Shown here piece after piece: positions 10,385-62,057 of a DNA stretch of 64,000 nt. The stretch is from NCBI GenBank assembly GCA_030248295.1, contig JASANH010001196.1, positions 62,001-126,000 on the forward strand, read 5' to 3'. The stretch comes from Mesodorylaimus sp. YZB2_4. Taxonomy: Eukaryota; Nematoda; Enoplea; Dorylaimida; Dorylaimidae. Numbering within the stretch: position 1 is the first letter of the stretch; each line of letters starts with the position of its first letter. The position numbers were made by a program, and so were the translations under genes. The notes under the pieces were generated by a model that saw only the letters and a program-made list of their open reading frames with translations, did no database searches and was not told the origin of the DNA.

Positions 10385-13300
10385 TCATTTATAAAACGAA
10401 CGATAAAACGTTTTCGACAGCCTGGCTTCGCGTTCTTGGCTCAGAAGCAGTTGCAAATCCCTGAGATTCACCCGTTTGTACCGGGGTCGATTCACCTGAA
10501 ACACATATCCTCAATGTGGACTCAGAATTCACATTCTCAAATCTGAAATTCTGTTTTCCATCTTGTAAGTCCCACTTATTCAGCACACAGCTGCTTTGTC
10601 CTATCCTTCAACACATGAGCGAGAGATAGCACTGGTGCCCCCCCCCAGCCAGGCACTCGCTCACCTGTGTCCTAAACGATGCTTCACCGGGCACAGTCGA
10701 ATTCGACAAGGGATTCGCACTCGATGCACCCATCGATTCGGTGGCTTGCGATGCACCCAAGGCTGCCGCTGGACGTTTTCGCGATGAAGACAATGCCAAT
10801 TGAGCAGCGGCGTTTGCATCGCGATTGCGCATTTCTTCTTGTTCGGCTTTTTGAAGCTGAAAAAGAAACCGAATTTACAAAAATTAAGAATAAAAAAGAT
10901 TAGACCCGAGCGGGATTCGAACCTGGAATATTTTGGGATTTCAGATCTAGCGTACTAACCATTTAAGCACGGGTTCGATTCCCGCTCAGGGCGTATGTTT
11001 TCTCATTGGTTTTTCTTTTTATTCATCTGCAACAGCCTATGGCCACGTACTTCTTTTGCCCTTTCTTTCATTCTTTGTTGTTCAGTGTCCCCGAGTTTCG
11101 AAGATCGACTTCTGGCCATTTTCAAGACCAGCTCCTTCTCGCGTTCTTCTCGTTTCAAGAAATCTTTTTTCGATAAGTCTTCCAAGAACCTCAGCTGCGA
11201 ACGAACATCCGTCACTGGCTCGTATAACGGATTGTTCTAAAAAGCTTTTTTTTAGAATCTCACTCAAATGTCCACCCCTTCGAATATGCACCCAAAACTT
11301 GAATATTCAATGTGCAATTTGTAAATAAAATCATGCCAAAATTTTTCCCGCCATTATCAAATTAAAAAGTTCTTAAAAATTTCTCCAAATTTAAAAAGGC
11401 TCCCACCCACTTTTTGCAACAGCCTTCAACTCCGTCCTCCTGGGGTGTGTTTCAGATCCATGACCCTCCGTCACCCTTTAAAAACTTAATCCTACATGGA
11501 TTCGCACACTGCTATAGAGTGGCAGCGAGATCAGTCCACCGGGTCTCAAAGCTGCCCTATCCTCCAACACGTGAGCGACAGCAGCGCCACCTAGCGGCCG
11601 AATAGCCAGTGCTTTAGTATGGGCACCGGCAGCCCAGCTGTCGAACAGAAGTCACCCCTATTCGATCGTGTGGTCACTCTTACCCTCAGCGGTTCAGTGC
11701 GATGTTCGGCGATTAAGGCCAATTTTTCGACGAGATCTTTAATCCGTTCCTGCGTGGCGTGTGATATTAGACTAAGCACTTCTGGCCGCGCGTCTTGGAG
11801 ACCGAATCGTTGAGATATGGCTCGAATCTTGGACGTCAACGGGCCCGTGTACAAGAAATCCTCATCTTTCCCACAACTCCGCGTTTCCGTGCTTAGAATT
11901 TCGGCAGTCGACGCCATAATTTTTTGCGATTCCTCGGCCAAATTTACGCCACCCATGGCCGCCACGTCGTTGATATCGTCCTCAGGTTCTCTGAAACAAA
12001 ACATTCAAGTTCCAAATTGTCTTCTACCCAACCCATTATTACTCCTCACCTGTACTTTTCCGGTGTGGCTGATGGTGGGGGATGTCCAGGGGGCAGATTC
12101 TTGGCCGCGCTCGATCCCTTGACCGGAGGTCTGGCCGGACGGTGAGCCGATGAACCAGGAGTCGCGTTGGCCGACGTGGTCAATCCCGCCGGACTTCTGG
12201 CCATATTTGGAGATGGCGTTGGTTGTCTGGCGGCTGTAGCCATTGCTTGCCGTTGCAAGGTGGCACTGGGCGACGGGGCGGCCGAGGGGCTACCGCCGGC
12301 GGCGCCCATCGCGAGTTGTTGCGCAACCGACGGGTACTGGTGCCTGGTCATCACGGATTGTGGCAACTGATGAGAACCAACCGACGGGACCACAGTTCGC
12401 GCAGGACTCGCCACAACATACGGGCCGGCGATCGGAGCCGCCGGCAAGACGCTCGTGCTGCCAACACTGCCCATGCTCGATTGGCCATTGCCAGGCGCCG
12501 AAGCTCTCGCGTTCACCCCGCCCGTCGTCGTCGCCAGTTGATTAACGAAGGAAGGAGCATTTTGAGGACTGGCATAATGTTGCACGCTGACAGGCGCCGC
12601 TTGCCGAACCACCGATGGACCGTTCAAACCCTCGAATGTGAATTCGCCAGCCCGATACGCTTTCTGCACATGCGGTAGCATATTCTGAAATGGACTCAAC
12701 ATCTTCTCGTGCGAACATCAAAAACAATGAGCACTTACCTCGAGGAAAGGCAAAAGATGAGGCTGAGGTTTCGAATTGAGCACGGCTTGTATTTTATCAG
12801 TGAAATTTTGAGGGCTAACGTGGCCAGCCTAAAACCACACGCTCTTAGAGTCTGCCCAGGCCCATGAATCAATTCTGATACTGACCAAGAGACCACTGAC
12901 TAAATTGGTCACTTCCTCCACCAGTCCTTGACCACTGCCTTTGTCCCTGGCCAATCGCATTAGCGTTTTTAAGAAGCTAATGCATTTCTTCTTTTCCGCT
13001 TCACAATTTTGAGGCTGCGATTGCTGTCCGCCGACGCCTGAATGTTGAGTCGACGTCGAAGAGCCAATTTGCTGTTGGTTTGTGGACGGCATCGGCGAAT
13101 TGATCACATTTTGGCCCACAATCGACGTGCTCCCCGAAGTCGTGGTCATCAATTGCACAGGTAAGCTGCTAGTCGCATTCCCCACGCCACTCAGACCCGC
13201 CGTCGACGTCGAGGGTGCCAAAGACTGCTGGTTCGTCAGACCGGGCGAGGCGGCGAATGCGGGCGGTGGAGTCGGATGACGTAAAACGGGCGTCGATGGT

Positions 13301-14889: not shown

Positions 14890-15265
14890 ACTATCTAATC
14901 GTTTGGCTGGTGCAGCGGTTCGGCAATCGTCTCTCCGTATTGTTTGGGAGCGAGTGGCTGGACTCGTCCCGGGTTCGATCCCCGGTGATGGAGGTCGGTT
15001 TGAGAACCATAAACCCTCGCTGAGCTTGCACGCCGGGCCGTTACCGTCGAGGTGCTCCGAGAGGAGAGACTGAAGCCAGACTAGGAGATAGTCTCGTCCA
15101 ACACTGACGGGGTTCACCCGCCATCGTCCGAGAAAGTCGGTGTCCAGTCCAGGATGCCCTCGCGTTGGTGCTCCTAGTGGAGACACGCACAAGGACATTG
15201 CTGTGTACTGGTCCCCGCACAGCCCTGCTTAGAAGGTTTGACTGCTGGCCGGCTAGAGGCAAAAC
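14890..15265 (+). repeat. tRNA-related SINE, copy A
   Basis: The tRNA-like head (about 14895-15000) has an A-box-like GGCTGGTGCAGCGG and B box GGTTCGATCCC. A body of about 260 bp follows (CTCGCTGAGCTTGCACGC, GTCTCGTCCAACACTGACGG). It matches copy B at 15765-16130 in reverse complement along head and body. No poly-A tail is obvious. Confidence 0.6.
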
Positions 15266-15689: not shown

Positions 15690-15764
15690 CTTTGGCCCAC
15701 AAAAATTTTTAAAAAACCTCGACGGTAGTGGGTGAGCCACCCACGGCCTGGCGTGCAAGCTCAG

Positions 15765-16130
15765 CGTTTTGCCGGCCAGCAGTCAAACCTTCTAAGCAGG
15801 GCTGTGCGGGGACCAGTACACAGCAATGTCCTTGTGCGCGTCTCCACCAGGAGCACCAACGCGAGGGCATGCTGGACTGGATACCGACTTCCTCCGACGA
15901 TGGCGGGTGAACCCCGTCAGTGTTGGACGAGACTATCTCCTAGTCTGGCTTCAGTCTCTCCTCTCGGAGCACCTCGACGGTAACGGCCCAGCGTGCAAGC
16001 TCAGCGAGGGTTTATGGTTCACAAAGCGACCTCCATCGCCGGGGATCGAGCCCTGGACAAGTCCAGCCACTCGCTCCCAAGCAATACAGAGAGACCAATG
16101 CTGCCAACTGCTCCTCCGTGGCCGCGGTTT
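15765..16130 (-). repeat. tRNA-related SINE, copy B
   Basis: Reverse-complement partner of copy A: head near 16130-16030 (the B box appears as GATCGAGCCC on the plus strand), body to about 15765. Copies A and B flank the MITE and would form a large hairpin. Confidence 0.6.
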
Positions 16131-19494: not shown

Positions 19495-19695
19495 TCAACC
19501 ACGCTTGCATCCACCACCCATGCTGCCATGCCCGCCCATATCACCACCCATTCCACCGCATCGTTTGGCCATCCTCTTTCCAGCACTGCGTCCTTGAGAG
19601 CAGCGTTGTTGACGGCGGACTTCGGCGTCGCGTTGGAAGAACAGTTGTTTCTTGGCGATTTGAGCCATGCGCTGAGCCAAGGCGCGCTTGCCGCA

Positions 19696-19764
<69 letters not shown>

Positions 19765-20174
19765 ACAACAACAACAGCAACAACAACAGCAACAGCAGCA
19801 ACAACAGCAACAGCATCCACGCTTGGTGCGAGACATGCGCTTGTCAGCCCTTGGCTCAAAATCGGCGCTGTCGGCTCGGCCAACCAACTGCAGCTCTCGT
19901 TTTTGTGCCGAGCAGCGTTTGTTGCGCTGAGAAGATTCTACTCCACGCTGGTTATGGCCACCACAGCTGCATCGTTTATTAAGCGGGGCTTCCTTGGTCA
20001 ATATGAGCTTGGCCTCATCTGGAAAAGACATTCTTGTATGCCCTCAAAGGGTAACATTTCAAGAAACTTACCTTTATTGTCCGCAATAATTTGTATATTC
20101 GTTGCTGTGGGAACTGCCGCAACTGAAGCAATAATCAAGCACAAGAGTGCAATTAGAATCTTGCAAGAGGCCAT
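19495..20174 (-). CDS. Secreted poly-cysteine precursor, copy 1 (41 consecutive Cys)
   Basis: No known family recognised. Exon 1 is 20174-20072 and exon 2 is 20018-19495, joined by a 53 bp GT-AG intron, giving 208 aa. Exon 1 encodes a clear signal peptide (MASCKILIALLCLIIASVAA, then VP). The rest is rich in Lys-Arg sites: LNKR, RNKR, QKR, ADKR, TKR, GKR, AGKR, AKR and CKR. Residues between TKR and GKR are Gly followed by 41 uninterrupted Cys (bases 19693-19815, codons mixed TGC and TGT). The C-terminus is Gly/Met-rich with single Cys. Convertase cleavage would free a Gly-Cys(n) peptide whose last Gly before KR could donate an amide. The opposite strand reads as poly-Gln and other frames as poly-Ala or poly-Leu, but only this frame has start, signal peptide, intron and stop conserved in both copies. 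Function is inferred only: secreted, processed, possibly disulfide-linked or metal-binding. Confidence 0.8.
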
Positions 20175-20258
20175 TGCAAATAAGACAAGGTGGCGCGCTT
20201 GAAGCAGTGAAGTGTGAGCTGACTGGAATGGAATGATGTTGACAGCAATTAATGGCCC

Positions 20259-20268
20259 ATATATATAC
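20259..20268 (-). promoter_or_regulatory. TATA box of poly-Cys copy 1
   Basis: TATATATA about 85 bp upstream of the ATG, identical in position to the one in copy 2. The 5' flank between TATA and ATG differs from copy 2 by about one base. Confidence 0.6.
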
Positions 20269-20384
20269 AGAATTTTGGTACGAGATGGTCATGCTCAGAA
20301 AACAGACGGTTTTTGTGCAAACAAAATCTCATGTCCGATTTTTTCCCATTCCCAATGACGCACCCCACATATTTGACATCATAC

Positions 20385-20727
20385 ATTTAGGTAATAAACA
20401 CAATTTCATGAAAAAGGTATGTTAAAAAAATGGCTATGGCTTCTGAAAAGGTATGTAAAAAAGCTGATAATCCTTTATTGCAGAAAAGCTATGGCGCTTT
20501 GCTCCTGAGAAATCGCGGTCTCTGCTCAACTCATTCGTCATATACAATACGCTGACTGCTACTATTAAAAGCCTGCGCAGTAACTTCGATTAGAAATCAA
20601 ATTGAGTAAAATAGTCTTCTCAGCCATCATGTCTGGTCAGTATATATACACAGTATGTATGGGATCTAATCGACTCAAAAGGATGCGGCACAAATACTGT
20701 ATGTTTTTTGTTGATTAGCTAAGTCTG
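20385..20727. other. Spacer between the two divergent poly-Cys genes
   Basis: Unique sequence between the inverted arms. It contains a short direct repeat (GAAAAAGGTATGT and GAAAAGGTATGT, about 20410-20460). Shared regulatory elements for both genes could sit here or in the inner arms. Confidence 0.5.
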
Positions 20728-20841
20728 TGATTTCAAATATGTGGGGTGCGTCATTGGGAATGGGAAAAAATCGGACATGAGATTTTGTTTGCACAAAAAC
20801 CGTCTGTTTTCTGAGCATGACCATCTCGTACCAAAATTCTG

Positions 20842-20850
20842 TATATATAT
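20842..20850 (+). promoter_or_regulatory. TATA box of poly-Cys copy 2
   Basis: TATATATAT about 85 bp upstream of the ATG at 20935. The matching box of copy 1 lies at 20259-20268. Confidence 0.6.
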
Positions 20851-20934
20851 GGGCCATTAATTGCTGTCAACATCATTCCATTCCAGTCAGCTCACACTTC
20901 ACTGCTTCAAGCGCGCCACCTTGTCTGATTTGCA

Positions 20935-21335
20935 ATGGCCTCTTGCAAGATTCTAATCGCACTCTTGTGCTTGATTATTGCTTCAGTCGCGGCAGTTCCC
21001 ACAACAACGAATATACAAATTATTGCGGACAATAAAGGTAAGTTTCTTGAAATGTTACCCTTTGAGGGCATGCAAGAATGTCTTTTCCAGATGAGGCCAA
21101 GCTCATATTGACCAAGGAAGCCCCGCTTAATAAACGATGCAGCTGTGGTGGCCATAACCAGCGTGGAGTAGAATCTTCTCAGCGCAACAAACGCTGCTCA
21201 ACACAAAAACGAGAGCTGCAGTTGGTTGGCCGAGCCGACAGCGCCGATTTTGAGCCAAGGGCTGACAAGCGCATGTCTCGCACCAAGCGTGGATGCTGTT
21301 GCTGTTGCTGCTGTTGCTGTTGTTGTTGTTGCTGT

Positions 21336-21370
<35 letters not shown>

Positions 21371-21569
21371 CGGCAAGCGCGCCTTGGCTCAGCGCATGGC
21401 TCAAATCGCCAAGAAACAACTGTTCTTCCAACGCGACGCCGAAGTCCGCCGTCAACAACGCTGCTCTCAAGGACGCAGTGCTGGAAAGAGGATGGCCAAA
21501 CGATGCGGTGGAATGGGTGGTGATATGGGCGGGCATGGCAGCATGGGTGGTGGATGCAAGCGTGGTTGA
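20935..21569 (+). CDS. Secreted poly-cysteine precursor, copy 2 (26 consecutive Cys)
   Basis: Second copy, transcribed away from copy 1. Exon 1 is 20935-21037, exon 2 is 21091-21569, giving 193 aa. The signal peptide is identical to copy 1; just after it PTTT replaces PTAT. All nine Lys-Arg sites are kept. The Cys run spans 21294-21371, 26 codons mixed TGC and TGT, between TKR-G and GKR. Outside the run I see one further amino-acid change (CSTQKR against CSAQKR). The length difference of 15 codons keeps the frame, as do all other indels, which argues that the Cys frame is the selected one. Cleavage at every KR would give short peptides including a Cys-containing 15-mer near the N-terminus and a Gly/Met/His-rich C-terminal peptide bounded by Cys. 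Role unknown. Confidence 0.8.
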
Positions 21570-22669: not shown

Positions 22670-23700
22670 TCAAGCAGTCTCATTCGTGCACGTAAAATCA
22701 TTTAGATACAGCTGAAGCGCATAAAACTGCGAGCGTTCCAATTCAGAAATATCAGCTTTTAAAACCGGATCCCAGCCGTATTCCAAACCAGAACGGACAC
22801 AGGCATTATAAACTGATTCTAAAACTGAAGGATGTGCGTGCCTTCCAAGTTTACGTCTAAGCGCACCCATCATGACATTGGACTTCTTAACGATCTCAGC
22901 CACATGCTCAGTGAACTTCAAGTGTGGACTAAAAATAATACCAAGATATTTTACATCGTTGAAAAAAGTGATCTTATGACCGCGAAAATATAAAGATGGT
23001 TCTGATGCAATTTTCCCATGTCCATAACGAAAAGTAATTGCTTGAGTTTTATCCACATTAAAATCCAAGCAGGCACTTTCCACCCAGGCCGCGATAAAAT
23101 CGATCATTGGTTGGATTGCTTCCTTTACGTCTTCTAGACGTCAAACTGGGAAAAACAGGGCGGTATCATCAGCGGAGGCTTGTAACAGAGATGCTGGGAA
23201 TCGACCAGAAAACTGTTGCAATAGTGAGTCGATATAGGCTACAAAAAGTGTTGGTCCCACGACACTGCCCTGAGCCTGCCACTGCCTGCACTGCCCGAAC
23301 ATGCAGGAGTAGTGTCCGAAGAACAGTCTCCGATCACCACTCGTTGAGACCTCCCATGGAGACAAGACGAAAACCAGCGAATGAGTTTCGTCGGAATACG
23401 GCGATTTCCATGAAGTCGCTCTAATAATAATGAGTGCGGTACCTGGTCGAACGCCTTTCTCAAATCCAAGAAAATCCCATCAACAAATTTGTAATTTTTT
23501 GAATTGAGGGAATCATGGATAAATTGCGTGGCATTGATCAGAGCACTGTTCGTTCCCCGACGTTTGCAAAATCCATGCTGATTCGGCGATAATGATAAAA
23601 AGGGCGGATCAGTTGATCAACGTGGCGCTCCAATAGTTTTGATAGTATCGATACAGGGAAATCGGGTGATACGATTTGAGACTGCTTTTATTACCTGGCT
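22670..23700 (-). pseudogene. Non-LTR retrotransposon reverse transcriptase, broken
   Basis: Reading on the minus strand gives, in order, conserved RT blocks: LSKLLERHVDQLI, QHGFCKRRGTNSALI, FLDLRKAFDQVPHSLLLERL, GSVVGPTLFVAYID, the active-site block ASADDTALFF, then a thumb-like part (FNVDKTQAITF, VKYLGIIFSPHLKFTEHV). These blocks lie in different frames (shifts near 23600, 23310 and 23110) and no endonuclease domain is present. The order and motifs fit the jockey/CR1-like non-LTR group. It is a dead 5'-truncated copy. Confidence 0.8.
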
Positions 23701-41585: not shown

Positions 41586-42737
41586 TCACACATCCTGGCA
41601 CACACTTTTCAGCCTCTCTCTTGATTCATTTTCGAAAATATCGATTAATATTCTAGTGAATAAGAGATTCATTTCTGTGGCCACTACTTGGTAAGTCATA
41701 GTGTTGAGTCCATCGTCGTGCCACCGTTCGTGCGCCGTGTCGTACAGTCTGTCATTGCAGGGATTGAGGGGGTTGTGCGTGTCCTGGGGATGCTTGATCA
41801 TCCGGTACCTTGCAATGTGGGCGGGGGGACGTTGGATGTGCAGGCCGTGCAGTCGTAGTCTGACGGCCATGTCGTCGTCTTCGCGATCCCAGCCCCAGTA
41901 GTCGTTGCTGTACCCATTGACCATGTGGAATATGGTGCTGTCCATGGCGACCACCCCTCCGAATAGGTTGACGAAAGGCAGGACATAGTCGAACTTGTCA
42001 ACGGCCACGGACAAGTGACGTGGTTGGGGGGAGCAGAAATACAAATTCAGGTCATTTTCGGGCATCATATCAACATCGTGGAAGATAAGACAAGGTCGAG
42101 GATCGTCTCGTGTGGCTTCCACGAATCCAGCATTCATCAATTTGGCTTTGTTAAATGTTTGATTTTGGATTTGTTCAATTATAAACAGCCTGTAGTCCAC
42201 TTGCTGCTTCTGGAGTAGGCTGTGTATGTTGTGCAGGAATGCGCGCAAATGGGATTGCCTGTCCCGAAATGGCACGATGACAGCCAGTCGGGCGCGGGCC
42301 TTGCACTGGCTCGGTGCCCATCCCCCACCCAGGGTCAGGTTGCTGGGCTGGTACAGGGTCAGTAAGTGGTCATAGGTGGGGTATTCGAGTAATGGTTGGA
42401 TGGGACCCACCAGGAGCTCCATCGAACAGTGTGGTCTGTCCAGAGCAGACAGTGCTGGCCTGTTTTCCATCCCCAACATAGCATCGACGTTCGTCCACGT
42501 TGATTCCTGATTTGGGCTGGACTGGCGTGCGTTTTGTTTTCTGGTGAATTCAATCTGTGATCGATGAGTTTGAAATACACTTCTTTCCGATTCGTTTTCA
42601 CGAGCCTTGATTCGATCTGAACTATAATTCCTGGTGTCCATCGAAAAGATAATGAACGAATAGAAAATGGTCAGAAATAAAATAATTCTAAACAATTGAA
42701 TTTTATTACTTTTATCTATCGATCCAGAATTTTTCAT
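41586..42737 (-). CDS. Beta-1,4-galactosyltransferase-like, GT7 family, intronless
   Basis: Golgi type II membrane enzyme that transfers galactose (or GalNAc) in beta-1,4 linkage to N-acetylglucosamine or another acceptor. Single exon of 383 codons. A short cytosolic tail precedes a membrane anchor at about residues 14-33 (LFRIILFLTIFYSFIIF), then a Ser/Asn-rich stem. Catalytic motifs are intact: RLAVIVPFRDRQSHL (UDP binding), FHDVDMMPEND (metal-binding DVD), VNLFGGVVAM, NGYSNDYWGWDREDDDM (acceptor and catalytic loop) and ARYRMIKH (metal-binding His). WGWDREDDD replaces the common WGWGGEDDD. Lack of introns in a genome where its neighbours have many suggests origin by retroposition or an ancient single-exon gene. 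Precise acceptor specificity cannot be read from the sequence. Confidence 0.92.
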   Translation of the reverse strand: MKNSGSIDKSNKIQLFRIILFLTIFYSFIIFSMDTRNYSSDRIKARENESERSVFQTHRSQIEFTRKQNARQSSPNQESTWTNVDAMLGMENRPALSALDRPHCSMELLVGPIQPLLEYPTYDHLLTLYQPSNLTLGGGWAPSQCKARARLAVIVPFRDRQSHLRAFLHNIHSLLQKQQVDYRLFIIEQIQNQTFNKAKLMNAGFVEATRDDPRPCLIFHDVDMMPENDLNLYFCSPQPRHLSVAVDKFDYVLPFVNLFGGVVAMDSTIFHMVNGYSNDYWGWDREDDDMAVRLRLHGLHIQRPPAHIARYRMIKHPQDTHNPLNPCNDRLYDTAHERWHDDGLNTMTYQVVATEMNLLFTRILIDIFENESRERLKSVCQDV

Positions 42738-43859
42738 ATTTAATTTGACAAGAAAGTGTGGAATTCAGCGGACAAGTGCCTCTGGAATCCGCCAGAAAGC
42801 AGAGCAGGTCGTGGTTATCAAAATAGTGCTGGAATTCGATGTTCCAAACTGCTCTGGCTAATTTCGCCGCTGCTTCACGACTCGCCTGATTGGGGACCCC
42901 AGTGACGAATGACTGCGCCAGTCGAGCGCATGCCGATAGAGACCATAAAACCCCTCAGAGTAAATCATATGCATCGTTGAAAACTGTAGTCGAGGGTGGC
43001 ACAGTCCCGAGTTTGTTGAAGCCTGTCAGTAAGCAGAGCCTGGCTAACATGCACATTATGCGCCCAGTGTCTCTGCTGCCTCCCGTTCATAACCAGTGCA
43101 CTTCGCTGGCACTGCTGCCAATAAGTTGAGCAAAGCAGCACATTGATGTCTTCAGTGCCGATTTCAGAAAATGTTGGAAGCTGCTTAAAAAAATTAGATA
43201 TTTTATATTTTTGTGACCTTATAACTTGTTGGATATGGTTGGATGGCACCCCATACTGTAACCGCTATTGATAAGATATACTGAAAGATGAAGCGCAGCT
43301 GCCATATCTGAAACTATAGTTTACCCCCTCGTCCACGAGATCCATTCTAATGAGCCTAACCTGAGATCGGGTTGACCCCACGGATCTACTGTACCCAAGC
43401 CCTTACAACCTGGACATTTTACTTGCGATTGTGTGCTATACATCTAATGACCAAAGCTTCTGCACCATGCCAACAACCCAGGCCGAGGCAGCCGACCAAG
43501 TCTAGTCCATGGAACTTGGTTGACTAGATGACGCTCCCAGCTCCTCGCAGAGTATCGATCGCCAGTCGAGCCTGCAACTTGCTGGTTTGCATCACCGCCA
43601 ATTCCGAAATTCGGCGACATACGTAGGTCCCTGGATATCACAGCATCGACCCCGCTTTTTTTTCTTCATTAAAGTGCGCATAAACTAGTTTTCATAGTTC
43701 AACGAAGCATGCATGGAAAGAGCTATGCTCGATACATTATGATGAGGCCAAGCGGAGACACACGACGAGTTGAAAGGCCTAGTGGTTTCCTCAACTACAG
43801 AAATATTGTGACCCTACCTATGTTATTGCCAAGAGCACAAAGTTTGGTACTGTTGATGA
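42738..43859. other. No gene seen
   Basis: Upstream flank of the galactosyltransferase, which must hold its promoter. Short open frames only. Confidence 0.45.
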
Positions 43860-45002: not shown

Positions 45003-47047
45003 TCACCATGGTCGCCACACACTGTCCTTCCCGCCGGTATTCGCATCAGGCATATCGCTCTCATTGGTTGCCTCGGAACTGCTGCAACTGGCCGAATCCT
45101 CGCCTTCGTCCTCCTCCTCGTCGTCCTCGTCTTCGTAACAGGCGGGTGTGCTGGCCAGCATACGAGTGGTTGTGGTCGACGATCTGGATCCTGATCGATC
45201 ATGGCCATCTTCCGATTTGGTCCCTATCATATCTCCGTCAAATGTGCCGCCTTTCTCCAACTCGCGTTTGATCACATCATCCGAGACTGACAATGCCGGT
45301 CGATCATCTATTATCGATTTGGAAATTGGGAAAGGTGGGAGCATGGAGGACAATCCGCCAGGCATGGATTGCTGACTGAGATGATGCATAGGAGGGATCA
45401 TACTAGCCTGCCATCGGTGCGCCGCTGCCGCAGCAGCTGCAGCAGCGGCTGCAAAAGCTGTAGGAGGATATAAAGCTGTGCTGGCTGGAGGCAGTTGCAA
45501 TGCAGGTCGAAGTGCGGGCGATGACGAGCCTAGACCGAATGCAGACGAAGCCGGAAATACGGCTGGTGCTAATCGTTGTCTATTCGCTGGTGCTGGGATG
45601 ACGGAAGGCCCACTGGCCACCAACATCGGATGTGATTGAGGGATGGGCAGTGTGTGCTGCAGTGCTCGCAGCCGCTCGTCCAGATGTCTTTCTAAGGCTT
45701 GTTTCATCGGTGCTGGCATTCCGTCCACAGTATTGGCGTAGTGTCGAACTTGCGCCGCACAGTCCCGCCATCCATCCAAAAAGCGATCTCTGATCGATGG
45801 TTGAATCATGCTGGCTCGCATTAATTGCTCTTGTTGCATGCGACGAAGCAGTTGTACTGTCATCTCCAAAATATCTGCTTTTTCCAATTTCGAGGTTTGA
45901 CTCGGATCCCGTTTCAAATATTCCAAAAGAAGATTTTTCAAATCGCCTAGGCATTTGTTGATTCGAGCACGACGACGTTTTTCCATCAAAGGTTTCTTGG
46001 CCTGGAAAAAATCTTAAGTTGCAGATAGATGCCATATCTATTTCCAGTCTTCAGTAAATGATGGCGAAGGCCTGTACGGTACTGAAGGGGTAGACCCAGC
46101 AGGTCCCCCCCCAAGGGCCAAGCCATGAAAGTGTTCTCTGTTGTGCGTGATACAGTTCATAGGACAGACAAGCCAGCCAAGCTGGGCGAGTGATAGGTTT
46201 TCTGAATGACCTGGAATATTAGCTGGCTGAGGCGTGCAGCGCAACAAATCAACTCCAGAAAATTTAGACGGGTCCTATCACTTATTTGATTCTGCAGACT
46301 GTGAGTGAATATATGTGCGATTCTGGCACAATGTTTCGTAAATCAGCTCAGAGACGGTCGATTAGTGATTTTAGAACGAGAAATTCGGAGAAAATCTGGA
46401 ATTTTGTTGGTTCAACGACACTTGGCTCAAAAAATAACTTTTTGCTTAAATACGCACTGCGCCTTGTCCGACATAATTTGTGCGAGGCAGATGTTTTTGG
46501 ATGATAGAGTCCGAATTTAGAATCATGCATTCTTAAATAATAATTCAAAATGCTATGCTGGACACGGCCGATGCACAAAGCCAGAAAAAGATATACTGAT
46601 CACATAAACATATATCTCAGATTTACAATTACGATAGAAGGTCCTTTCCTTTTCTCTCGGAGAAAAACGCAAGTTTTGTAGCGTCTAAAAATTCAAATTT
46701 CCAACAGGGAGCTGGGCTGGGATCAAGTCTATCTTGTGACTGACTGAGTAACGCGATTGAGATTGACTGCTATGCTGAAACTGCTTTGAAGTTGCTCAAA
46801 GTAGCGATAGCTCGGATCAATCACAAAACTCACAATCAATGTCAAAAATGGTTTTCGTGAAAGAGGACCGCAAATTCAGGGGGGAAATGTTGGAAGGCGT
46901 GTCAGACAGGAATACACAGAGCAGATCACCTCGGAGAAAACCCGCATACAGCAGCTACAGCATATTTGCAATGCAAAGACCAAAGTCGCCTACCTTGCGA
47001 TCCATTCTTTCGGATGTAGTCGAGCTATGACAAGGCATCGTTCGCAT
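45003..47047 (-). CDS. HES/Hairy-type bHLH-Orange repressor
   Basis: Transcriptional repressor of the Hairy/Enhancer-of-split group, typically a Notch target that recruits Groucho. Exon 2 is 46001-45003. Exon 1 is read as 47047-46994 (MRTMPCHSSTTSERMDRK), joined in phase to AKKPLMEKRRRARINKCL, across a 992 bp intron. The basic-HLH part has the family MEKRRRARIN and LEKADILEMTVQLLR. An Orange-like region follows (GWRDCAAQVRHYANTVDGMP, ALERHLDERLRALQ). Later come a poly-Ala run of about 13, Pro/Ser-rich sequence, an acidic stretch and the terminal WRPW tetrapeptide. The basic region here lacks the usual Pro of the Hairy basic domain at its visible start, but KKPLMEKRR keeps the subfamily look. 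Exon 1 is inferred from phase and similarity and is less certain; two CSL-type sites lie upstream. Confidence 0.9.
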
Positions 47048-53239: not shown

Positions 53240-56200
53240 ATGAGCGAGTTCTACAAAGTTGAAGCTACTCTTCCCGACCCAGCCTATCAACGATCCGCGC
53301 CACCGCCTGATCGAGGCCAACCAAAATCGACCCACCCCCAAGTTGGTATCCGAGCTAGCAAATCGCAGCCCACCAACTTGATGCCCATCGACGAGACCAC
53401 AGTGGCCAGTGCACCGCCAGCGGAGCAATGGCATCAGCAACCACCAGAACCCACTTGGAACCCGTATGAGCAACCCAAGTCACAGCCATCCCCACCACCA
53501 CCTTACACGGACGATGGAGATAAACACGCAGAAACACAACCGATCCTTCGACCAGCCGAGGTGAATCCGGATCTGCGTGATCGGTGTCAGTCGTGCGAAC
53601 GTATTTTACGTCGACTATTTCCAATCGCCTTGCTCTTTTCTTACACTCTTCTGGGTGGTATCATATTTCATCTAGTCGAGTCCAGAGCACAATCCGAATC
53701 CGAAATTGCCAAAGGGCATCGAGTATTGATCGATCAACCGCCCGCCTTACAACTGGAAAAACGCATGACCGAAATTGTTTTGGATCGAAATTATACTCGA
53801 GATCGACGAACGTACGAAGTCCGAGAAGCCCTTTTATGGTATTTAAGGCAATTAAATGAGGAGGAGAAGGCGAGATGGGATTTTGCATCATCTTTGTTTT
53901 ATTCGATGACACTATACACCACCATCGGTAAGTACCTAACTAGCACTGGGAAAGTAGGTGAACAGAGTTGAATAGAACCCATTTTCCAAATACAGTCTAA
54001 CCAGCGAATACTGGACAAATAATCCCACGAATGGGGGTTCGATTCCCGCCCAGGGGTTAATATTTCGGCACTCCTCGACACTGTACTCGAGGCAGGTCAG
54101 ACTTGGTTTTGAGGGCAAGTGATGAAGGACGTCCCCTTTTACCATCCCCACTCGATGATCTCAGAGCACGCTGGCACGAGCACCGGCGGTTATCGTAATG
54201 GCTGAAAGAACTGTCCTCGCCTTTGATCAAATTGCACCCAAGCATTTATCTCGCACATGCATGCAGGACCCGCCTTTCCTCCAATTTTGAACTGGTCTTT
54301 TTCCAAAATGTCTTGGCAGCCATTTTTCGACCTCCTTTTGCCCAAATGCTCACAGACATGCACTCCTTTCTAAAACTTGAGTGTCCAAACGATAAACCAC
54401 TTGACTGTGGGTTTAGTTTTTTCGCCAAGTTGAAATTGGAAACTCAAGTAGTCAACAAAATTATTTCGGCGCAGGGTGAATTTGTCAAAAACATCAGCTC
54501 GTTAATTCTTGAAAAGGTGAGAATAAACGAAGCAGTCAATTTCTATTTAGTCCTTCGAGAGTTTTTGAAAAATGATCACTGGGACAAAGGGTTGATATTA
54601 AATAGTTTGACTGACGTAAAAATGAGCAAAAAGTTGGAAATATACTAAAATTTTTCTTATTTACTGAACCGCACTTTTTTGATTTTAAGCTAGACTTGAA
54701 TTAAAAAAATTTTGGGTGATTGTGCGTGATCGCAAGGGGTTCAATGACGACAGTCTCACATAGTAGATTTTTCTTTGAAGCTTAGCCGTGGCTTTGCTTT
54801 GTATCCAGTGGTGCCGTTGGCAACAGAAGACTTTCACTCAGCGAAGACCTCATCAGAATCTTTTCTTGTGTGATGTATCCCTTCACCCTCGAGAGCGCGT
54901 AAGTGTTGATTCGGTAAAACAGGAAGAGGAAGGGCCTTAAATATTCCTCCTACGCCGCCGACCCACACACTTTTGGTGTTCAACATTAGTGTTTTTATGA
55001 GAAGTACCAATACACCCATGTGCATTGGAGAAGATACCGCCAGGGACGGATGGTCTCAATATCCTTCCAGGCGGGCCTCCTAGTCATTGTAGTCAGAAAT
55101 ATCAAGGCGACGGGTTTCTGGAGGGTCGAGTGTCCAACGAAGGCCTGCTACGCTGTATGTGGCCGCCAGTCGAGGCAACCAGATTCTACGCAGCCCAAAT
55201 ACACTACCACACCAACCACATACACCTGTAATCTGACCATGAGTACGGATCAAAGCTTCACTCGAAGACTGCTGACATGCTCACAACTTCGCACCATCAA
55301 GTAGCTGCATCATTGACATCCTATTTTAGCCAGCCACCGCAATCATCTCACGCCATTTCGCACCCTAGCTACGCATTCCAAAAATAAGCTTCCGCCTATT
55401 CCTCCTGCAGCACCGCAACCTTAACTCCTTGAAAAAAACTAGACGATCTGAGGATGCAGTTTCCCGTCCCGGATCCGTAGGACGTGTGTGACCTTCACCA
55501 TCGATGATTCGAACACCAACTGGTGCTCTGTACTGAACAACCATTCTTTCAGGTTACGGTGATACCCCTCCCAAAACAACCAGTGGCCGTGTCCTCACCG
55601 TCATCTACTCGATCATAGGCATCCCTCTGTGTCTGGTGGCCCTGATCGAATTGGGCGACCTGGTGGCTCTGTTCTTCTCGAAACTCTGGTCGTTGGTGCG
55701 CCATGGTTGGACAGCGATTCGTGGTCGTCGTCGCCCAACGGCTGAAAAGGGCGGCGATTGGCAAGCTCTAGCCGCTGAGGAAACGCCTCAGGAAAAACGC
55801 GAAATTCAAGCTCAAGAGGACGCCGATTTATTAAGCTTTCCATTATCAGCTCTTTTTCTGTTGACTTTCTTCTGGTTGCTTTTCACAGCCTTATTATTCT
55901 ACGCTTGGGAATATGATCACGATTGGACATATGCTCAATCATTATATTTTACCTTCATTTCAATCTCGACCATAGGATTGGGTGATTTCGTTCCCGAAAG
56001 CACATCAGGAAAATTAGGTGGTGTCATATTTCTTCTGGTCGGCTTAGCTCTGCTCTCAACCACGATCGCCGTTTTCCAAAATCAATTACTCGCTTTACAA
56101 AGCGAAATGCAAAGACAAATCGACAGTGAATATCAATATTCACAAACTGATTCTGGCCATCCGATGGCCACGGACGACCGCGCCGCTGATCAAGGGCTAC

Positions 56201-56535
56201 GAAAAATGGCTTCCGGACTGCCGATTGGTTCACGTCTTCTTTTTAAAATGATGCCCGAAAATAGAAAGGAAACTTTGAAACAATACTATCAACAAAAGGC
56301 AGCTATGGTTTCCAAGAGCATGCAAACTGACGATTATCTTTGGGCCATGACTTCCATGAGTAAATCGTACTTGAGAAGGGCGCTCGAGGAAAGGCAAGGA
56401 AGCGGGGCTGGGGTCAATGTCGAGAGTCGACACAGCGGCAAATCGAAATCTCGAGATGACGTCAACTCGTTGGTGGCATTGTGCGATTATTCGTTGCCCT
56501 ACGAGTTCGATGAACACAAAGACTACGACTTTTGA
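53240..56535 (+). CDS. Two-pore-domain (K2P) potassium channel
   Basis: Leak potassium channel subunit; dimers set resting potential at the plasma membrane. Exon 1 is 53240-53927, exon 2 is 55553-56535; 556 aa. A long Pro/Gln-rich cytosolic N-terminus of about 125 residues precedes M1 (FPIALLFSYTLLGGIIFHLVE). The extracellular cap contains NYT, a possible glycosylation site. The first pore filter is split by the intron: TTIG joins YGDTPPKT. M2 follows (VIYSIIGIPLCLVALIEL), then a basic loop, M3 (FLLTFFWLLFTALLFY), second pore STIGLGDFVPE and M4 (VIFLLVGLALLSTTIAVF). The cytosolic tail is charged. The GYGD/GLGD pair and GIPL are K2P hallmarks. The intron position in the first filter codon (glycine) is the conserved one for many K2P genes. 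Confidence 0.95.
54005..54060 (+). repeat. tRNA-like B-box sequence in K2P intron
   Basis: GGGGGTTCGATTCCCGCCC, like the outward B box at 10971-10990 in the TAF4 intron (GGGTTCGATTCCCGCTCAGGG). Both appear to be ends of the same tRNA-related repeat family. Confidence 0.35.
54223..54648 (+). CDS. 141-codon open frame inside the K2P intron, unassigned
   Basis: Open from ATG to stop with a protein-like composition (LTDMHSFLKLECPNDKPLD, VNFYLVLREFLKNDHWDKG). I recognise no domain. It could be a piece of a decayed element, an unrecognised nested gene, or chance. Confidence 0.2.
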   Translation: MIKLHPSIYLAHACRTRLSSNFELVFFQNVLAAIFRPPFAQMLTDMHSFLKLECPNDKPLDCGFSFFAKLKLETQVVNKIISAQGEFVKNISSLILEKVRINEAVNFYLVLREFLKNDHWDKGLILNSLTDVKMSKKLEIY

Positions 56536-58229: not shown

Positions 58230-59208
58230 TTATGACCTACGTGCAACCTCAACTAAAGATACTGGTACGACCACATCGACTTGATTCGGCCATATTTTTC
58301 TCAGCACCAATGCAGAAAATCCAGTCCTATACTCTGCATTGAGGGCGATCAATGCGCCCAGATCAATTAAACCTTTGATCAGTGTGAACCAACTTGAAAT
58401 AGGAGCATAATAACATTGTTTAAAAAAATCCATATTTTCAATAAGTTTCATAACCATCGTTGTCCCAAAAATTGTCACGAGACATATAATAACAAGGGCA
58501 AATACTGATTTGATAGCTTGCAGTTCGATATCCCTTTTGAACGCTGTCATATTTGTATTAGTCGCCCTTGCAGCCTTCCATCTTTTGGCCAAGATAAGAC
58601 CAATAATGGCATTGATTATAATAATGCTGGCCACTGTGACATATTGATACCACAACAGGAAAATGTAGAAAAAATGTGTAATAGAAGTAATTACTGCGCA
58701 CGTGATTTCTATCCTCGCCCTACTGACACCAACAAATCCCAAGCAAGTGATAACACACGAAATTGCGATGCTAAGAAAAATGAGTACGCTTTGTACCCGC
58801 GTGCTACGGGTAAAATACCAAGTGGGAATTGAAATGGCTAAAAGGCGTTCAATACTTAATGCCAGGACGGTAATGATTCCATACACATTAGAAAAAACAA
58901 TAAGCGATATCCTAGCCACACATTCTAGCTGATTCGTGATTTCATCTTTTTTCAATACGGCGAGGCGAATTCGTTGAGAATAAATTATACCAAAAGCAAT
59001 CGATTTTAGAATATCGCTAATTGCAACGTTGGTGACCAGAAATTGGTGTTTTTCTCTCAATGGTTTCCATAACATGCACAATTACTTGCAGAATCGAGCA
59101 AACCAAATCAGCAATATTTAGTACCAGACTTACACTTAGACCAAGTAATTGAGCCGAGATGCCTCGAGTTGAAAGGGCTTGCAGATCGGAAAAAGATGTT
59201 TTATTCAT
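58230..59208 (-). CDS. Divergent class A GPCR-like receptor with apparent frameshift
   Basis: Seven-helix receptor-like protein. From the ATG at 59208 the frame reads an N-terminus with an NKT glycosylation site and helix 1 (LLGLSVSLVLNIADLVCSILQ). At about 59080-59095 it must shift by one base to continue as MLWKPLREKHQFLVTNVAIS (loop 1, helix 2). The second frame then runs open to a stop at 58230: helix 3 ends SIERLLAISIP in the position of the DRY motif, helix 4 VLIFLSIAISCVITCLGFVG, helix 5 YVTVASIIIINAIIGLILA, helix 6 FALVIICLVTIFGTTMV, helix 7 LIKGLIDLGALIALNAEYR. The usual NPxxY is not present; NAEYR stands in its place. Either a single-base indel inactivates it or there is a sequence error. 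Ligand unknown. Confidence 0.6.
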
Positions 59209-61113: not shown

Positions 61114-62057
61114 TTATCGCCAAATGTTTACTCCAGTTGACTTCTTGCAGTCCTTCAACTTGAATGAAGCTTTAGAACCATCTTCGTAGGTGAATGTCAC
61201 CGATGCGCTGTCAATGAATTTTGGCTGCCCCTGTCCATCGAAATCGAAATATCCGCTACCCGATTGAAACCTGCCATTTACGCCAGCCGCCACTGCACTT
61301 TTGACTATTTTTCCGCCCGTGTTGAACACACCCAAACTAGTGAAATAAGCTTGGGGGCTACTGAATGGACGAGTGTAACAAACTGGGCCAGCAGCATTGA
61401 AGGGGTTGGTTTTTGACAATTCAACAGAACATTGAGCAATACCCGGCGGTTTGTTGCCAGTAGCCAAGTTCCAGGTTTTCCTGATCAAATCCACGCCGCA
61501 ACTGCCTGAACCTAGATTGCACGTACTGGCGACTACTGCCTCCACTGATGAACCACCACAGTTCACCCGTAACACCTGTCCGCAAAGACCATTTCGCCAG
61601 GCCAGATTGCCCAGATCAGGCGACTGACCTAGGGCCAAAGCGTGCTGAATCTTGTATCTACCTTGGGGCATTTGACAGCCTCCAGAATCGGTAGAGTCGG
61701 CCCACATAGTACCTTTGGCAGTCGCTGTTGCACCTACAAAACTCTTCTTGTAGTTATGCTATTTTGAGATGATATGTTTCCTGTTAGCCGTGCGTTTCAC
61801 ATGCATCAGTTTTCTCTGACAGTTCTTTACGGTTTGAAAGCTCAAAATCCGAGTGTCCAGGTATCTGAGCGATATGGGCTTTCAACTTTGACCGCCGCCA
61901 TTCTATCTCCCAACAGAAAAAGAGCTGCACGGCTAACAGAAACATACTAGTCCACTAGAAACACACAACGCATGCCACAAAAACCTTTCTTACCTGAGGG
62001 CAACCTTGCAACGAATACCGCCAAAGATACAAGGACAGCGGCAAAACCTTGATGCAT
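61114..62057 (-). CDS. Secreted expansin-like double-psi beta-barrel protein
   Basis: Exon 1 is 62057-61994, exon 2 is 61733-61114; 227 aa. Exon 1 encodes a signal peptide (MHQGFAAVLVSLAVFVARLP). The mature part starts GATATAKGTMWADSTDSGGC and continues with a barwin/RlpA-like barrel: LAWRNGLCGQVLRVNC, VEAVVASTCNLGSGSCGVDL, then PPGIAQCSVELSKTNP. The Asp in GVDL and the Cys pairs are those expected in expansins and related barrels. The C-terminal 90 residues (GRFQSGSGYFDFDGQGQPKF, VTFTYEDGSKASFKLKDC) look like a beta domain that may replace the usual expansin binding domain. Expansins loosen cellulose-type walls without hydrolysis. A TATA-like ATATAAG lies at about 62134-62140. Assignment to the superfamily is fairly safe; substrate is unknown. 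Confidence 0.7.

Follow-up and report, generated by a model that had tools for sequence, protein, structure and literature searches.

A divergent gene pair with long cysteine tracts

Two runs of consecutive TGY codons raise the question of whether a nematode gene can encode a secreted cysteine homopolymer and, if so, what the product might be used for. Cysteine is reported to be heavily under-represented in the low-complexity regions of prokaryotes (PMC6821194). In the stretch of Mesodorylaimus sp. YZB2_4 DNA analysed here (64,000 nt, hereafter the window), spliced models built from the sequence place a head-to-head gene pair within positions 19495-21569, one member lying on the minus strand (20174-19495) and the other on the plus strand (20935-21569). 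The start codons are 760 bases apart and transcription is predicted to be divergent. Each model includes a hydrophobic leader exon, a 53-bp GT..AG intron in phase 1, nine KR dipeptides, and the arrangement RTKR-G-Cys(n)-G-KR. These models confirm the preliminary description of the locus, which had reported two genes with a leader exon, a 53 bp intron, nine KR sites, and 41 or 26 cysteines set between TKR-Gly and Gly-KR.

The minus-strand copy is predicted to encode a protein of 208 aa. Exon 1 (20072..20174) would specify a signal peptide (leader MASCKILIALLCLIIASVAA, judged from sequence) and the start of the propeptide; the predicted intron occupies 20019..20071, and exon 2 (19495..20018) carries the propeptide with its KR sites and the Cys tract, up to the stop codon. 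The tract (19693..19815) consists of 41 consecutive Cys codons, 24 TGC and 17 TGT. In the plus-strand copy (predicted protein of 193 aa), the signal peptide exon lies at 20935..21037, the intron at 21038..21090 and the second exon, organized in the same way, at 21091..21569; here the tract (21294..21371) has 26 consecutive Cys codons (15 TGC and 11 TGT). The tract ends given by the gene models agree with those given by Tandem Repeats Finder. From the plus copy, processing is predicted to release CGGMGGDMGGHGSMGGGC, a peptide rich in Gly and Met that has a Cys at each end (computed coordinates 21504..21557).

The two genes form the arms of an inverted repeat comprising 669 nt at 96% identity plus 342 nt at 94%. 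The main block of the first arm spans 19735..20403, and its 96% complementary counterpart spans 20706..21374. Outside the tract, five base differences separate the two genes' coding regions, and two of these change an amino acid. An assembly artefact was judged unlikely, since the copies differ both in sequence and in tract, and since contig C109 holds the same divergent pair with tracts of 36 cysteines.

A gene family in the same genome

Searches with family proteins of the genome to which the window belongs (G000; 145 Mb, 1067 contigs) found at least 26 loci with a Cys tract on 16 contigs. Contig C247 holds five of these loci and C46 three, while C174, C109, C41 and C49 hold two each; C2, C9, C40, C53, C58, C59, C118, C157, C164 and C196 each have one. 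Counts from these genome searches are lower bounds and, as the queries contained the tract, members lacking it could have been missed. Two further matches are omitted from the 26: L065 on contig C93, a Cys run with unrelated flanks whose match contains stops, and L064 on contig C17, a different gene with Cys4-Asp repeats. The preliminary description had held that its idea would fall if no homologue kept the Cys frame; the idea survived, with 24 further tract loci in this genome, one of them (L033, G000:C49:426652-427188) having an in-frame TGA in exon 2 upstream of an intact tract. The gene family is almost certainly real at the level of sequence.

Proteins could be modelled for 23 loci. In 22 of them a leader exon is followed by a phase-1 intron of 50-257 bp, while L042 is a single open frame with no intron; for L021, L022, L028 and L034, the splice model adopted was either tied with another or ranked second. 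The loci outside this set are L023 (a leader is seen, but its splicing was left unmodelled), L033 (because of the TGA) and L060 (leader not found). All 23 modelled proteins have a hydrophobic leader, as judged from sequence, although the models were selected for having one. The number of KR dipeptides per protein ranges from 6 to 10 in the 22 two-exon models. Basic pairs bound the tract in each of the 23 modelled sequences, 19 of which have RxKR ahead of it. Gly-rich segments that start and end with Cys occur in 22 of the 23, L042 being the exception. In addition, a Cys directly follows xR, with at most one intervening Gly, at 3-5 places per protein, the start of the tract included. The earlier proposal of a precursor that is secreted, rich in dibasic sites and carries a Cys homopolymer flanked by likely cleavage sites is supported at the level of prediction, as is the placing of Gly as a possible amide donor; Gly is present on both sides of the tract in 23/23 modelled proteins.

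In a tree built without the tract, very long branches lead to L040, L042, L045 and L046-L048, the placement of these long rows being unsure; such branch lengths argue that the tract has persisted while its flanks diverged strongly. L060 is more distant, with the arrangement KR-CGGG-C31-GKK. Its only significant relatives in the genome search are members of the Cys-tract family, the matches falling mostly in the tract region, and a search for its leader exon found none. In L046-L048 (G000:C46:117319-136075), repeated CGGGGGGCHRAARDAEYSRNAR units precede the Cys tract, their number varying between copies.

Forms of the tract

Besides the uninterrupted tracts of the window (C41 and C26, where the number gives the cysteines in a run), three genes have a plain C36 tract. 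The commonest interrupted form, C5-K-C24-K-C5, is found in six modelled genes, and also in L023 and L033. Other Lys-split tracts are C5-K-C22-K-C5, C6-K-C25-K-C5, C5-K-C26-K-C5 and C5-K-C27 (two genes); those with a shorter core are C5-K-C17-K-C5-K-C5, C5-K-C18-K-C5 and C6-K-C11-K-C5, and three genes have C4-K-C31/32-K-C4. The tract of L042 reads (CCDCCK)14-CCDCC, with 60 Cys in 89 residues. Overall, Lys stands among the Cys in 18 of the 23 tracts and is absent from five, including both tracts in the window.

Across the 23 modelled proteins and L060, the number of Cys is even in 12 of the 15 distinct tract forms (binomial 0.018, calculated post hoc), which would let every thiol pair; the odd ones are C41 in the window, C39 in L048 and C31 in L060. 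In L064 (G000:C17:610300-613300, minus strand), which belongs to a different gene, the Cys4-Asp repeats, KRCCCCDCCCCDCCCCDCCCCGCGCGGG, immediately follow KR or RR and occur in two adjacent open frames. This region has a relative on contig C111 and is possibly a second route to secreted proteins with Cys runs.

Promoter elements

The upstream regions of 24 genes (L023 among them) were inspected. The sequence TATAWR was present between -115 and -58 in 23 of them (mean 2.1, maximum 6, in 300 shuffles); further upstream, from -286 to -115, it was absent from all 24. In L045, the one gene not counted, a TATAWR at -63 is clipped by the boundary of the interval. In the window, the TATA element lies 93 bases before the ATG in both the plus (20842..20849) and the minus copy (20260..20267). 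Both copies also have the upstream element GAGCATGACC (20813..20822 in the plus copy and 20287..20296 in the minus copy); in the plus copy, its CATGAC starts 26 bases before the TATA element. In 13 of the 24 genes, the distant L042 among them, the start of CATGAY precedes the TATA element by 25-27 bases, although these genes are related and so are not independent. Similarly, GAGCATGA occurs in the last 200 upstream bases of 8 of the 24 genes, always on the strand of the gene (mean 0.1, maximum 1, in 200 shuffles; again non-independent). The placement of the TATA and upstream elements points to transcription of the strand that would encode Cys and suggests shared regulation.

A TATA form resembling STATAWAARS was seen in nine of the 24 upstream regions; this count covers the family's upstream regions and is a lead only. 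The STATAWAARS motif has been reported for the effector-producing tissues of Bursaphelenchus xylophilus (PMC6062891).

The reading frame of the tract

Shifted by one frame, a TGY tract reads as poly-Leu (CTG/TTG), while its complementary strand reads as poly-Gln (CAG/CAA); both of these frames are open through the tract. The assignment of the Cys frame therefore needed an independent test, since a single DNA repeat underlies TGY, YTG and CAR runs and the tract might be a CAG/CAA or CTG/TTG microsatellite misread in the wrong frame. The flanks were compared for 11 of the 23 proteins (55 non-independent pairs; the set omits, among others, the distant L040, L042, L045 and L046-L048), and in these pN/pS was lowest in the Cys frame (0.20), followed by the poly-Gln frame (0.32), and ranged from 1.45 to 2.28 in the other four frames, the poly-Leu frame showing the highest value (2.28). 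Because the poly-Gln frame also gave a low ratio, its codons sharing wobble positions with those of the Cys frame, the two were separated directly: among isolated flank differences in the same pairs, 224 left only the Cys-frame translation unchanged and 55 only the Gln-frame translation, while 1182 were silent in both and 177 in neither. Stop codons interrupt the poly-Leu frame in all 23 modelled genes and the poly-Gln frame in 21; the exceptions, L021 and L022, have no stop in the latter over the stretch tested. The Cys frame has none, by construction of the models.

Within the tract, a comparison of equal-length tracts from six genes (540 codon comparisons in 15 non-independent pairs) found 96 third-base differences and none at first or second bases. 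Neutral evolution of a repeat should alter every codon position. By itself, the tract does not distinguish Cys from Leu or Gln coding; it is the flanks, the Lys and Asp codons that interrupt the tract in frame, the leader and the promoter that single out the Cys frame. The leader exons, the intron phase and the position of the TATA element agree among paralogues, and the latter fits the Cys strand, as does the leader exon. Selection on the Cys frame was seen, contrary to what would be expected of a CAG/CTG microsatellite without Cys coding. A misread poly-Gln or poly-Leu repeat was accordingly rejected on the frame tests, the tract interruptions and the promoter position, and we consider that reading extremely improbable.

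Comparison with known systems

A Pfam search gave no match for the window protein (E 0.001), nor for L042, L046 or two frames of L060 (E 1), and a sequence search of the PDB gave none for L042. A search of a protein database, in which scoring was confined to the 7992 candidates with the largest numbers of shared words, returned one hit (P0001, E 0.0078) that was taken as chance, its Cys runs being scattered and its flanks unmatched. As Cys words may have crowded the candidate list, a second search was limited to residues 1-109 of L027; it yielded three candidates, none at E 0.1. The protein database thus offered no convincing counterpart, but the proteins of this very genome were not returned either, so that absence elsewhere does not follow. 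In searches of the open-licence literature on cysteine runs, no such family appeared in the listed titles or in the opening parts of abstracts. The rarity claimed in the preliminary description, which knew of no secreted family built in this way, stands as far as Pfam, the PDB, the protein database and this literature were searched, and holds no further than that.

Nematode neuropeptide-like precursors consist of a leader and several short peptides bounded by dibasic sites, some with a Gly before KR. The present family would share this architecture, but its main product is predicted to be a Cys homopolymer of varying length, and the word cysteine is absent from the main text of PMC8764417. Predicted peptides bounded by dibasic sites, as in NLP and FLP precursors, are evident from the sequence, whereas the Pfam searches above gave no neuropeptide domain or family motif. 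The glycine-rich secreted peptides (GRSP) of nematodes are likewise short, Gly-rich, secreted and encoded by gene sets. They are described as linear and are not defined by Cys, and the account of them in PMC10506718 offers no counterpart to the Cys tract; the Gly-rich pieces of the present family are, in contrast, Cys-ended in all modelled proteins but L042.

Among Cys-rich proteins of nematodes, Ts-PCHTP has its leader in exon 1, is found in cuticle and tissues, and is reported with metal bound (PMC2954182). It differs in being a protein of 424 aa with 'poly-cysteine' domains of spaced Cys (CxCCC...), reported not to be excreted, and the description in PMC2954182 includes neither a Cys homopolymer nor a dibasic precursor. 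Membership of this trichinelloid group was rejected: PCHTP combines CxCCC with a C-terminal His tail (PMC2954182), while none of the 23 modelled proteins has a His tail and their tracts are homopolymers or repeats. Short man-made Cys runs are also known, either as engineered 5xCys tags for disulfide assembly (PMC8250426) or as synthetic polycysteine peptides used for their thiol chemistry (PMC7977147), neither corresponding to a natural gene family.

The family can also be set beside the metallothioneins. These combine a high density of Cys, Lys beside Cys, and CxC/CxxC spacing. The high density of Cys and the neighbouring Lys are shared by the present family; it differs in being predicted to be secreted, in having Cys runs rather than CxC/CxxC, and in showing no metallothionein domain in the Pfam searches above or in the PDB search with L042.

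The possible product and its alternatives

A reading that we favour tentatively is that the freed Gly-Cys(n)-Gly peptide acts as a polythiol hub which, through disulfides with co-released Cys-ended peptides, forms a tough extracellular material. The leader would direct export of the precursor, and furin-type proteases would cut it at RxKR and KR; a carboxypeptidase, perhaps followed by amidation at Gly, would then trim the peptide ends. The expected products are the Gly-Cys(n)-Gly polythiol and several peptides beginning with Cys. Oxidation of the tract would lead to cross-linking by disulfides, and the Gly/Met-rich peptides, having Cys as first and last residue after cutting, could link the hubs. 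The processing enzymes are plausible, as the genome contains seven matches to the convertase P domain (PF01483) and 25 to the Cu2 monooxygenase domain of amidating monooxygenases (PF01082). Given the 26 loci and their TATA promoters, bulk secretion of a disulfide-set material would be the simplest reading; the high copy number and these promoters would fit secretion by one cell type, with cuticle, eggshell, matrix or glue as candidate structures. The predicted gene structure, the number of genes, selection on the Cys frame, the Gly on both sides of the tract, the flanking basic sites and the TATA elements at a nearly constant distance upstream are all consistent with this proposal. Tract lengths of 26 and 41 in near-identical copies, which argue against a receptor that reads the exact tract sequence, fit loosely constrained repeat slippage as well. 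Other points against the cross-linked material are the lack of a Gly-rich Cys-ended segment in L042 and of a detectable leader exon in L060. Further, mammalian cells are reported to lose viability when they express long Cys homopolymers (PMC6821194, citing Oma et al.), and cells of the worm would accordingly have to handle the product in some special way.

In the main rival of cross-linking, the tract, once freed, would serve as a secreted peptide that holds metal through its thiolates, an analogue of metallothionein very dense in Cys, binding or sequestering zinc, copper or cadmium. The Lys residues among the Cys of most tracts and the regular CCDCCK repeat of L042 would suit such a role, and a nematode protein whose domains are rich in Cys, Ts-PCHTP, reportedly carries Zn and Fe (PMC2954182). 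The metal-binding reading is weakened by the five tracts that lack Lys, both window tracts among them, by the negative Pfam and PDB searches described above, and by the oxidation expected along the secretory route; on balance, metal binding appears possible but rather unlikely. If instead the tract were a pro-region or spacer that shapes folding or storage, the active products would be the Gly-rich or ALAQR...QRC peptides, with antimicrobial or signalling functions. The leader, the many dibasic sites and the Gly-rich pieces recall neuropeptide-like precursors, and the family also resembles the glycine-rich secreted peptides (PMC10506718), but the Cys tract is kept in each distant member seen (L040, L042, L045, L046-L048 and L060), all found with tract-containing queries, while the neighbouring peptides diverge; a spacer role appears unlikely. 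A redox-active secretion, in which the freed polythiol would act outside the worm by reducing or trapping oxidants or electrophiles, would agree with the thiol density and the multigene family, and small synthetic polycysteine peptides are reported to be radio-protective (PMC7977147); we regard it as improbable.

Should the cross-linked polythiol material be the correct reading, this might be the first natural secreted Cys homopolymer, its precursor being cut into a polythiol and its own Cys-ended glycine linkers, a 1:1 kit of hub and linker whose tract has diversified into the forms C(n), C5-K-C(n)-K-C5 and (CCDCCK)n; we propose this with reserve. The genes form a family under purifying selection in which Cys runs, for the most part 20-40 long, are kept between predicted cleavage sites. 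Such a family raises the questions of how the cell folds and stores such a product, what chemistry the product performs, and whether nematodes make a disulfide-set material or a new metal peptide. The family would also offer a natural template for polythiol materials.

Genomic context

The genome contains 133 matches to the N-terminal domain of nematode cuticle collagens (Col_cuticle_N), which together with the Srsx-type receptor of the window mark it as that of a nematode; a single GH5 match has no bearing on its placement, and neither does the absence of SL1 matches among the 50 of 31302 candidates scored. In the window, the predicted genes with Pfam matches are ordinary animal genes: they encode TAF4 (11591-12004, minus strand), a galactosyltransferase of family 7 (41586-42764, minus), an HLH/Hairy-type factor (45003-46013, minus), an ion channel with two pore-type stretches (55537-56535, plus) and an Srsx-type receptor (58230-59081, minus). 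An open frame at 61114-61758 (minus) resembles an expansin-like protein, although it has no Pfam match at E 1. Broken open frames resembling reverse transcriptase lie beside the gene pair (22670-23616, minus) and were judged by eye to be a retroelement remnant. Another inverted repeat, with arms of 261 nt at 96% identity that lie 503 nt apart, occupies 15000-15260 and 15764-16024, and it may extend below position 15000, where the searched stretch begins.
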